The notes under the pieces were generated by a model. That model was not told where the DNA came from. It ran no database searches and saw only the letters and a list, made by a program, of their open reading frames with translations. Source: Patiria pectinifera (Eukaryota; Echinodermata; Asteroidea; Valvatida; Asterinidae). Taken from it: a stretch of DNA of 64,000 bases. Position numbers and translations under genes: made by a program. The DNA is taken from assembly GCA_029964075.1 (NCBI GenBank), contig CM057140.1, positions 10,992,643-11,056,642 on the forward strand, read 5' to 3'. Of the stretch, positions 12,301 to 18,300 are shown in pieces; positions within the stretch are counted from its first letter, which is position 1; every line of letters begins with the position of its first letter.

Positions 12301-15300
12301 TGTTTGTAAGTGGTACCTTTTCAACACTGAACCTGTGGTACAGTGTTTTTCTTTTATTGGCTCCTTCACACAGACTCAAGCAGACATCTCTCTGAAGGAA
12401 ATGAAGACACAACTGAGCAAATCTTCCCCAGTTTTCAATTGTCTGATGTGGTTCTGATGGGTTACATCTGCTGTACGTAAAGTGATATTGCAGTCATCAG
12501 AAATCTGCAGTGATGTGCAGAAGATACTGGAAGTATCAGAGTTCGAGCACTTGTTGTTTTAGACGATGCAAACAGTTTTGCTCAAGCCTCCCACGTAGTT
12601 GTGGCTAACAGCAGCAAAGGTCATCAGCACATGTGTGATTCCTTGAAGGGATGTAGGAAAACAGTCAAATAATTCATGGTTTTCAACAACACTTCCACCA
12701 AAAAAAAGCATAAAACCAAATTGACCTTTATCCAGTTCCCTTGACTTTTGTGGTTGAGGATCCTCCTAGATCGTGAGACAAGACTCCAGAAAATCCCTGT
12801 ACACCCATGTATGGCTTGCCACATTCATCTTTTCCACTTCCAGATTCTTCACACAATTTCACTGTTTTCTTGAAAAGCCAGCAGTCAGTTTAGATAGTTG
12901 TTGATTCTCTTGCTACACATAGCTGATTGTTCCGATGTGGAATGAGAGATTTCAAAGTGGGCAAAGTGTTGTCATCTTTTGTTGGAACACTTAATGGCAT
13001 GACTACCCTGATAATTGAACACTTGGTGAATGCAAAAGTAGAATAGAACTGGTAGGGTTCAGGTAATGCATAATATGTATATTTAATGTACAGGTATACC
13101 AGCAAAACCAGGAGAACGTTTTGGTGGCCCTTAAACTGGCCGGAACATGTTTCTGACGTCACAGCCGTGACCTGAAACGTGTTTCCTGTGCACTGCGAAA
13201 ACGACTGACCGGAAAATTGTTCATGTTACTGCCTATGTGACTGCACACAACCCAAAAAAATCACGCCGCGACCGGACATGATTAACAATAACATTCAAAG
13301 CAAAAGTGGGAGTTTTTTTATAGCGTTTCCCTGAAGTTCTAAAAAGAGTATAGGCCTGATATTCTGTATCAACTTTCGTACCAATTGAAGGTAAAAACCC
13401 ACTATTTAAACCCCATTGATTGTAAAAAGTAATGTGCTAAGCTCGTTTACCTTTCCGCCATCTTGAAGCATAAGTGAACTGACTGGAAACTTCAGTTCAA
13501 CTTTGGTTGAAACAATGACGTCATTTCAGTGTAACCGAAGCGCCAAAATGGCCGCGAACCAGAAACATGTCTACGGTCACAGCGCCAAAACGTGCCCCAG
13601 TTACCTTTCATTTGGATCTTACACTTTAATAGCTATTGCTACCCCGAGTTGTTATGAATTTATAGCCTCGAGTCTTGTGCATCTTTTAATATCAAAAACA
13701 TAAAATTTGGACCATGAATTGCCGCGCAGCGAAAAAATTTTCCGCCGCTATGCACCGTGAAAACTTAATTTCCCCATATACTTTGTGTACACCAAGCAGA
13801 ATTACCATTTGTGCATATGAATAATTAATTAGCCATAATTCCAAAAACATTTGACCGAAAGTTATGAAATTTCTTTGGTATGTTTATGATTTAAGTAGTT
13901 CTTTGCATGTACTGAGTTTCACAATTTTTCCAAACTCGATTGCCGAGATCTATTAAGGGGGAGGGGAATTTCAACCCTTCCCCCCCCCCCCCACCACTGA
14001 GAGATTGTCAAAATAACCCGGCCTTTTTAGGGTTATTCTTTAATACGATGGAATATTTATGATCCTAGGATGAAATCTTTATTACAAAGGATTTACTTAA
14101 GGAATGGCCTTGTTTATCTGTACTATTCACATTTTTGCTGGTACAAGTGATGCAATTACAACCTTGAGCAGCTTTTTCCTGATTCTTTTAGTGCAATAAA
14201 TTTTTTTATGTAATGGTTCGCAAAGAAATTAAAAATACAAACGACTGATATACCAGCATATTTGTAATCAGTGTCTTGAAATGGGTCAAAATTAAAAATA
14301 AAAACTTATTTAGCTTATTTTATGTTTTTAGTATCAAAAGATGCGCAAGACTCAAGGCTAAAAAGTCAGAACAGCTCGTGTCGCAAACAATTTTTTTTCA
14401 AGGCTGTCACGGAAAAAGTTGAGGAGATTCAACATTTTGTTAAAGGGTTAAAGCAGGCACATTTGAAGTTTCAAAGCAACCAATTTCCTTATTTGAAAAT
14501 GCAGTGGTGTATCAATCTAAATTGGATCGGGATGTGAGAAAAAATGTTCACGTCAGCAAATGTCCTATTTAGTGCCACACCTTGTTCTTTGATTTTCAAT
14601 TTAGATGATTTTTGTGGGGTTTTGTCAGTATCTGCAACCTCCACCTTAAAAAAACTTCTCACTTTGGGCTGCTTCTGTGCCTCTAACACCAACGAAAATC
14701 TCTATGAAAAAAATATATATCTGATGTAACGTTTGTCACCTGATGATAGTGTAAACGTCTATTTCTCAGGTTTTGGATTGCTTTGATTTTGATTACCGGG
14801 TTTGTGTTATTAAAGATTAATATCATTATGGGTTTGTTTCCAGGTGAAAGCATCTTGATCTGTAAGCCCAGCGAACGAGACAAAGCCTCCAAGTTGCTGC
14901 AGGCTCCTCTGCCACCCGTCCAGAGCTGTCTCAAGAAGCAAGGGCAGGACTTGAGCAACTCTATGAAACGGGCGATCCTTGAGGTACAGTTTTGACATCA
15001 TTGGCTTTTGCTGTAATTTTCAGAAATGAACTATTTGAGGGGTTAGTATAATAGATCAAATATTGTTACACTGACATGTTTGAAGTTTTGTGTTCGAAAA
15101 TGCTGGGGAAAAAACAAGAAAACAAAAATGTCTAAGTAGTCTGGTTCCCTGACTCCACTTAAGATGAAATGGATCAATTTATAGATGTCGGAAAATTGTA
15201 AGGTAAGGGAACCAGTCTAACTGGCCTGCACCCGTTCATGAATATGTAACCAAATTTGCAAACAAAATTTGGACTGAAAAAGTGGGATCTTACACTTTAA

Positions 15301-18300
15301 TAGCTATTGCTACCCCGAGTTGTTATGAATTTATAGCCTCGAGTCTTGTGCATCTTTTAATATCAAAAACATAAAATTTGGACCATGAATTGCCGCGCAG
15401 CGAAAAATTTTCCGCCGCTACGTGCCATGAAAACTTAATTTCCCCATATACATTGTGTACACCAAGCACAGTTACCATTCGTGCATATGAATAATTAATT
15501 AGCCATAATTCCAAAACCCTTTGACCGAAAGTTATGAAATTTCTTTGGTATGTTTATGATAAGTAGTTGAATGCATGTACTGAGTTTCACAATTTTTCCC
15601 TACTCGATTGCCGAGATCTAAGAGGGGGGGGGCAGAATTCCCCCCCCCCCTTCCCACTGAGAGATTGTCAAAATAACTCGGCCTTTTTAGGGTTATTCTT
15701 TAATACGATGGAATATTTATGATCATAGGATGAAATCTTTATTACAAAGGATTTACTTAAGGAATGGCTTTGTTTATCTGTACTATTCACATTTTTGCTC
15801 GTACAAGTGATGCAATTACAACCTTGAGCAGCTTTTCACCTCTGATTATTAGTGCAATAATTTTTTTAATGATATGTAATTTACCGCAAGAAATTAAAAA
15901 TACAAACGACTGATATACCAGCATATTTGTAATCAGTGTCTTGAAATGGGTCAAAATTAAAAATAAAAACTTATTTAGCTTATTTTATGTTTTTAGTATC
16001 AAAAGATGCGCAAGACTCAAGGCTAAAAAGTCAGAACAGCTCGTGTCGTAAACATTTTTTTTTTCAAGGCTGTCACGGAAAAAGTTGAGGAGATTCAACA
16101 TTTGGTTAAAGGGTTAAAGCAGGCACATTTGAAGTTTCAAAGCAACCAATTTCCTTATTTGAAAATGCAGTGGTGTATCAATCTAAATTGGATCGGGATG
16201 TGAGAAAAAATGTTCACGTCAGCAAATGTCCTACTTAGTGCCACACCTTGTTCTTTGATTTTCAATTTAGATGATTTTTGTGGGGTTTTGTCAGTATCTG
16301 CAACCTCCACCTTAAAAAACTTCTCACTTTGGGCTGCTTCTGTGCCTCTAACACCAACGAAAATCTCTATGAAAAAAATATATATCTGATGTAACGTTTG
16401 TCACCTGATGATAGTGTAAACGTCTATTTCTCAGGTTTTGGATTGCTTTGATTTTGATTACCGGGTTTGTGTTATTAAAGATTAATATCATTATGGGTTT
16501 GTTTCCAGGTGAAAGCATCTTGATCTGTAAGCCCAGCGAACGAGACAAAGCCTCCAAGTTGCTGCAGGCTCCTCTGCCACCCGTCCAGAGCTGTCTCAAG
16601 AAGCAAGGGCAGGACTTGAGCAACTCTATGAAACGGGCGATCCTTGAGGTACAGTTTTGACATCATTGGCTTTTGCTGTAATTTTCAGAAATGAACTATT
16701 TGAGGGGTTAGTATAATAGATCAAATATTGTTACACTGACATGTTTGAAGTTTTGTGTTCGAAAATGCTGGGGAAAAAACAAGAAAACAAAAATGTCTAA
16801 GTAGTCTGGTTCCCTGACTCCACTTAAGATGAAATGGATCAATTTATAGATGTCGGAAAATTGTAAGGTAAGGGAACCAGTCTAACTGGCCTGCACCCGT
16901 TCATGAATATGTAACCAAATTTGCAAACAAAATTTGGACTGAAAAAGTGGTAAATTTGGAGCTGTAGTTAAAAAAAGTTAGGTTTTCCAATGGTATCGTC
17001 CGACCAACCCTTTGACCTATAGTCATGAAATTTCTTGGGTATGTTCATGATGAGTTGCTCCATGCATGTACCGAGTTTCAACATTTTTCGTCACTCGATG
17101 GCCGAGATCTTGGGGGGGGGAATCCCCTGGTCAACCCCGAGGCTATGCTAATTGGTCTGGCATGCCCCACCCAGGGACTGACTGAGGCCTGGCTGGGCCA
17201 TGTGTTTTACCTATCAGCGGCTTTAAACTCAAGAAAAGAAAAATCAGAATGAAAAAGTAAATTTCCCTATTCAAAATACTCAAACTAAAAGAATCATACA
17301 AAAACCACTAGAAAAGTACTCGATACATCATACACTTTCTGAAACTAGAGTTATCTAAGCAAAATATTATATGGTTTCACAGAAAAATCAAGAAATAAAT
17401 CCACACTCCAGACCAGAATATGGCCGATTTTGGCCCAGACTGACCATATTGTTACACACACTGAAAAAGTTAAACCATGCTGTGAAATCTCCGACAATGA
17501 AACAGAAAAACCTAATTGTCCTCAAGTTCAAAAGAACTAAACTTTAAACCAACTGAATGAAATAGTTAAATCTATTATCTGAATACTTCACCCTGCAATT
17601 TATGCCAAAAATAAAGCAACGCTTCTTACCTGAAAGGAGAGGGAATAAGTAGGCAGCAGGTGGAATTGATGATGATAACAACACTCAAGCATGCTGGATC
17701 ACATCCACCCCAACCACTGCACCCTCATGTCCAGAAAACACACAGCACAATTAAGGGGCAAGAAAACACAGGGCCCAATTAACAGGCCAGAAATCATTGG
17801 ACCCTATTAAGGGGCCCTATTACATCTGTAAGTTTTGGATTCCCTGGGTTTCTTTTGCTCCCAAGGTGATTGCAAGTGGGGCTGCCTCCACCCCACATGA
17901 AGTGTCTTGCTATGCCGGCTGTACTCTACTAGCAGTCAGCCTGACGCCGGGTTCATCAGATCAAGAGAGGGGTGCAGCTGAAGATGGGGCAACCACAGCG
18001 GGGGCCATCCACAGATGTGTAAAGTTCCTGCAGGATCAGGAATTTGTGATTCTCCAGAAGGTTCAGTGTGGAGGTGGGTGTCCCGGACTGTATATATTAC
18101 AAATGCAATGGAGCATGCATATGAGGTCCCCTTTATGACTTTATTGCAAAACAAATAAATATATAACAAGTATGGTGTGAACAACAAAACCGTCCAAATT
18201 TTTGTTTACTAAGATTATATTGTTTACAGTTTGAATTACTTTGAAAGATTGTTGGTTTCGGGATCAAAATTGGGGGGAAACGGAGTGCAGACAATTTATA

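Follow-up and report, generated by a model that had tools for sequence, protein, structure and literature searches.

A duplicated exon that breaks the reading frame can cause disease, and for exon 2 of DMD skipping of one copy restores the full-length product (PMC10709182). Frame conflict is also common among mutually exclusive tandem exons; PMC5740500 gives frame-incompatible lengths for 377 of 629 human clusters (60%), with reads joining the exons in only 83 (22%) of these, so that frame conflict is in itself no sign of novelty. A model for the origin of such exclusion, put forward by Ivanov and Pervouchine, has competing RNA structures arise from duplication of one stem arm (PMC6071210). 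Apparent duplications can also be assembly errors, for which half depth, gaps and haplotype k-mers are described as marks (PMC9516828).

Here we describe a probable tandem duplication within the POLQ gene of the sea star Patiria pectinifera, found in a stretch of 64 kb that we refer to as the window. As with DMD exon 2, the tandem exon copies jointly break the frame and removal of one restores a full-length message; the DMD duplication is a clinical allele whose RNA and protein outcomes are established, whereas that of POLQ lies in another gene and was seen in a genome sequence (PMC10709182). The similarity of the tandem exons and the frame shift on joint inclusion are shared with the mutually exclusive exons of PMC5740500, but the latter are backed by splice-junction reads whereas the POLQ exons are identical in sequence and were recognized in a genome assembly. 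Heterotype false duplication and false exon gain likewise leave nearly identical copies side by side on a single scaffold, differing as alleles do; this locus departs from them in that the hallmark gap between the copies is missing (PMC9516828). Our literature searches found no pertinent report of POLQ exon duplication and none for inverted repeats with circular RNA and related terms, while the parts of PMC9741552 and PMC9013439 available to us hold nothing on identical or out-of-frame exon pairs. The duplication is a new instance of an already known kind of event, intragenic tandem exon duplication.

Results

POLQ contains two identical, frame-incompatible exons

The gene was identified by a protein match to human POLQ (E value 5.3e-56, against 2.3e-21 for the next family, Hel308). 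Five of ten window pieces matched DNA polymerase A in Pfam, three of them above the curated cut-off and all downstream of the duplication, and one of the ten matched the POLQ helical domain; the 1309-aa open piece of the central exon matched no Pfam family. POLQ seemingly extends to about 37227, and its frames appear undamaged in those pieces that were analysed, which indicates that the gene is not long dead. The exons that bear on the duplication are as follows (window coordinates).

7176 to 7437, plus strand: open stretch with the preceding POLQ exon, donor after 7437
14844 to 14983, plus strand: POLQ exon 7A, 140 nt, with AG/GT borders; its protein matches human POLQ
16509 to 16648, plus strand: POLQ exon 7B, 140 nt, with AG/GT borders
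17866 to 18075, plus strand: next POLQ exon, with its acceptor just ahead of 17866 and the 3' end used in the frame test

An earlier sequence-only reading had reported two identical 140-nt exons that cannot be used together, and both parts of that claim were upheld. Alignment showed that the exons are identical, each preceded by AG and followed by GT. The reading frame is kept when one copy is spliced in; inclusion of both disrupts it, giving VKAS* with a TGA as codon 5 of the second copy, and inclusion of neither gives a frameshift. The number 7 is the count of that first reading; the gene begins upstream of the window.

The unit is duplicated head to tail with a sharp novel junction

Self-alignment showed that a 1.67-kb segment of POLQ is present twice, head to tail, at window positions 13614-16950. 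The copies are spaced 1671 bp apart and are 96.25% identical across 1681 aligned columns, in agreement with the tandem duplication previously proposed.

13614 to 15285, plus strand: copy A of the duplicated unit
15285 to 16950, plus strand: copy B of the duplicated unit, which has the G at 15285 in common with copy A as the junction overlap
15281 to 15290, plus strand: novel central junction, with a 1-bp overlap and zero inserted bases by sequence and alignment
13105 to 13600, plus strand: apparently complete left-flank element with terminal inverted repeats, separated from the left break by 13 bp
16660 to 17006, plus strand: dispersed repeat interrupted at 16950, the right break; complete in copy B, shortened in copy A (14995-15281)

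At the central join GTGG is followed by GATC, with a single G common to both sides, so the microhomology of about 1 bp noted earlier holds; there is no N at the join or anywhere else in the 64 kb. The dispersed repeat interrupted at the right break runs on past that point in copy B but not in copy A, and this identifies the middle join as the new one and the right outer flank as original. The left flank is an ordinary complete element, and no repeat was found spanning the left break. The locus therefore comprises two head-to-tail copies, one novel junction and the original outer flanks, as in an intragenic tandem duplication. Homologous recombination between repeats was rejected as the source of the join because the breaks, one 13 bp outside an element and the other inside a different repeat, have only 1 bp in common.

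Further copies of the repeat at the right break occur within POLQ at 4867-5202 (plus strand) and 20714-21054 (minus strand), with 87-88% identity. The copy at 20714-21054 is inverted relative to that at 16660, and pairing with this inverted copy is predicted at -408 to -485 kcal/mol. It could pair with 16660-17006 or with 14995-15281, in loops that would also take in the next exon and other POLQ sequence further on; such pairing could favour exon skipping or circular RNA. The element at 13105-13600 is 88-91% identical to 39 other places in the same genome among the scored candidates and belongs to a different family from the element within the unit.

The copies differ in a mosaic pattern

Most differences between the copies fall in one block, the greater part of which lies in an old transposon remnant that both contain.

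13732 to 14222, plus strand: diverged block of 491 bp, with 52 of 58 difference events between copies A and B
13643 to 14035, plus strand: copy A of a 5'-truncated dispersed element, from a search of the same genome (best 40 of 2173 candidates)
15314 to 15695, plus strand: copy B of the same 5'-truncated element, with 45 derived states shared with copy A
14317 to 14424, minus strand: inverted fragment from the left end of this family, able to pair with 13645-13706
15982 to 16090, minus strand: the same inverted fragment in copy B, placed by alignment

The 58 difference events comprise 51 substitutions and seven indel events, distributed as 0 in 13614-13731, 52 in 13732-14222, six in 14223-14648 and 0 in the last 637 bp of the unit, which include the exon and are identical between copies. 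Clustering in the 491-bp block departs strongly from uniform placement (binomial p about 1e-21). The earlier suggestion of uneven divergence, with an identical exon and 3' flank, thus stands, but the diverged part is an internal block rather than the 5' third of the unit from its edge. Transitions and transversions number 20 and 31 across the whole unit, and 13 and 14 in the element core, against 5522 and 4793 summed over pairs of family members; the transversion excess arises outside the core, mostly in the poorly determined alignment of 14177-14222.

Elsewhere in the genome, members of the element family, which may resemble piggyBac-type miniature elements, run from TTAACCCTAAA to TTTAGGGTTAA. 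The element in POLQ is without its left end, and a search for this end upstream of 13614 gave matches no better than shuffles. Each unit copy carries 62-bp inverted arms upstream of its own exon. Changes in the element core were polarized with 28 family copies as outgroup, drawn from 38 scored outside the window (best of 2173 candidates) and representing the closest copies rather than a random sample: 45 states are derived in both POLQ copies, 14 are private to A, 10 are private to B and three are in neither class. The 45 shared states indicate one element insertion that was in place before the duplication; from the sequence, either both copies then changed or they were different alleles.

These shared states, and the rarity of private ones (found in at most six of the 28 aligned family copies wherever the two commonest states settle the matter), led us to reject independent insertion of the element into A and B, and likewise the idea that other members of the family had overwritten the diverged block. 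Homotype false duplication, in which sequencing errors would separate two versions of the same sequence, was also rejected. Errors in raw long reads are mostly indels, and the 51 substitutions against seven indel events are unlike them; private changes in the element core also occur on both copies. The 491-bp block may have arisen because the copies came from two different alleles, or because they are old and were later homogenized, either origin being compatible with the data.

No cue for mutually exclusive splicing was found

The introns measure 7406 nt (up to 7A), 1525 nt (between the copies) and 1217 nt (after 7B). We saw no steric or splice-site incompatibility between 7A and 7B, given identical GT-AG borders and the 1525-nt middle intron. 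The 62-bp arms pair in isolation at about -75 kcal/mol. In a partition function confined to 13600-16700, the local stems have 53.6 and 53.5 expected pairs of 62, against 0.57 for each of the two stems able to place exon 7A in a loop; looping-out of this exon was dropped as an explanation, and within the same fold we did not find competing stems that loop out either exon. Among splice sites, intron lengths and predicted RNA structure there was no cue for mutual exclusion. The proposal that this locus would need mutually exclusive splicing therefore lacks the usual testable cues, and the allele may simply be impaired.

The alternative proposal of a helicase-only product was likewise not supported. 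In human POLQ, D2 spans residues 290-513 and the winged helix 514-612 (PMC4671958); mapping of the human POLQ match onto these limits places the stop at about residue 537, inside the winged-helix domain, so that the product would not be a complete helicase. As judged from the sequence, it would lack most of the winged helix together with domains 4 and 5.

Because the exons are identical, junction 7437-14844 is indistinguishable from 7437-16509 in mature mRNA, as is 14983-17866 from 16648-17866. The difference between the copies that lies closest upstream of the exon, at 14648, is intronic. The junction between the two copies of exon 7 is the only informative one in RNA, although a circular RNA made of this single exon would show an identical sequence at its back-splice.

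Copy number and assembly context

A 201-bp query around the exon (14800-15000) matched two places in 613.5 Mb, both of them the window copies, and a 2-kb query from the central POLQ exon (24000-26000) matched one place, in the window. Queries 13560-14400 and 12000-13620 gave full-length or nearly full-length matches only within the window and repeats alone elsewhere. With the best candidates scored for each of these four locus queries against the same genome, no separate unpurged haplotig was seen.

Long tandem arrays are resolved in and near the window. Just downstream of POLQ, an array of 320-bp units occupies 14.1 kb (39198-53335; about 44 copies, 91% matches) with 0 N. Upstream on the same contig (C12), a 219-bp satellite runs from 10908423 to at least 10954000 and was present in eight of eight later pieces, one 10-kb piece consisting wholly of 219-bp units that are 99.7% alike with no N. 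An N run of at least 350 bases was present in one of these eight sampled satellite pieces (from C12:10917651), about 89 kb from the duplication. It is probably an assembly gap, in which case joins would be written as N in this assembly; this is a weak indication, as sequence withheld from the search also reads N.

None of 12 control stretches of 10 kb contained a non-satellite direct duplication of at least 1 kb at 90% identity, in a sample that is small, was picked by us at round coordinates and comprised six stretches near the locus and six on other contigs. Two of the controls contained satellite and one a 281-bp pair. A 3.3-kb segmental pair, 92% alike and 28 kb apart, was observed separately at C18:12889448-12892954 and 12861240-12864746 among 48 of 62 fetched loci that were compared.

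Discussion

We lean, by a modest measure of probability, towards a reading in which the sequenced haplotype carries a genuine 1.67-kb intragenic tandem duplication and is probably a hypomorphic or null allele of POLQ; its first component, that the sequenced molecule truly has the duplication, is likely in its own right. The join would have been made by end joining or template switching between non-homologous breaks, and the diverged block could stem from an inter-homologue event between alleles or from gene conversion over the exon and 3' flank of old copies. Since the exons do not differ in their splice sites and the introns are of ordinary length, substantial double inclusion is the default expectation. 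Translation of such messages would end prematurely within the winged helix, and they would probably be degraded by nonsense-mediated decay, while some single-exon mRNA would yield normal protein; POLQ output would probably be lowered, and the allele may be polymorphic in the species. Support for this reading comes from the sharp join with no N and no inserted bases and from the predominance of substitutions among the differences. There are two counterpoints, namely that mosaic divergence is also expected from two haplotypes placed side by side, and that POLQ looks intact, so that age and fixation of the duplication, if they apply, would speak against a null allele.

The first of these counterpoints leads to heterotype false duplication, in which an assembler set two divergent alleles next to one another and each haplotype has one exon 7. 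Assemblers are documented to render two alleles as if they were paralogues, and false exon gain within a gene is a named class (PMC9516828), and a mosaic of 0-10% between the copies is compatible with allelic divergence. However, there is no N between the copies and the 1-bp overlap leaves no overlap to join on, long arrays have been resolved in and near the window, and the controls, few as they are and half from one neighbourhood, contain no comparable duplication; the N run on C12 adds the weak point that gaps are seemingly written as N. Together with the lack of a haplotig among the scored matches, these observations disfavour the artefact that the sequence-only reading had offered as its alternative, and we regard it as unlikely, though still deserving of serious consideration. 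A maintained exon pair, with regulated single-exon splicing, homogenization by gene conversion, and frame conflict and decay enforcing one exon per productive mRNA, is improbable. The frequency of frame-incompatible lengths in human clusters, the apparently intact POLQ frames and the identical exon and 3' flank beside a block of about 10% divergence, as conversion would leave, all accord with it, but a choice between identical exons leaves the protein unchanged, the splice sites are identical, the middle intron is too long for steric exclusion and the predicted stems are local and would seldom place an exon in a loop. The docker-selector route, moreover, begins with duplication of one stem arm (PMC6071210), whereas the POLQ unit duplicated both. 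More speculative again, and very improbable, is an old fixed pair whose exons are kept identical by conversion and in which POLQ output is set by how frequently one or other of the two identical out-of-frame exons is skipped. Unproductive splicing would then throttle an end-joining polymerase by means of a type of duplication that this polymerase may itself create.

The observation of a duplicated exon is sound and the need for mutual exclusion is unsupported; an awkward or damaging structural variant is most likely, ahead of a new splicing switch. Pol theta is a key polymerase of microhomology-mediated end joining. If real, the duplication probably means that an animal has naturally lost Pol theta or has less of it, and it offers a natural test of how a spliceosome deals with a pair of identical exons that cannot share a reading frame. 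Should the duplication instead be an assembly error, POLQ annotations from this genome would be wrong at this place.

Two further candidate coding sequences were observed in the window. A 398-aa open frame for a rhodopsin-type GPCR (PF00001, 2.6e-28) at 10706-11899 (minus strand) sits antisense within the POLQ intron upstream of the duplicated exon. Downstream of POLQ and on the opposite strand, a stretch at 62444-62992 (minus strand), presumably KDM1A-like, matches amine oxidase and, weakly and short of the curated cut-off, SWIRM.
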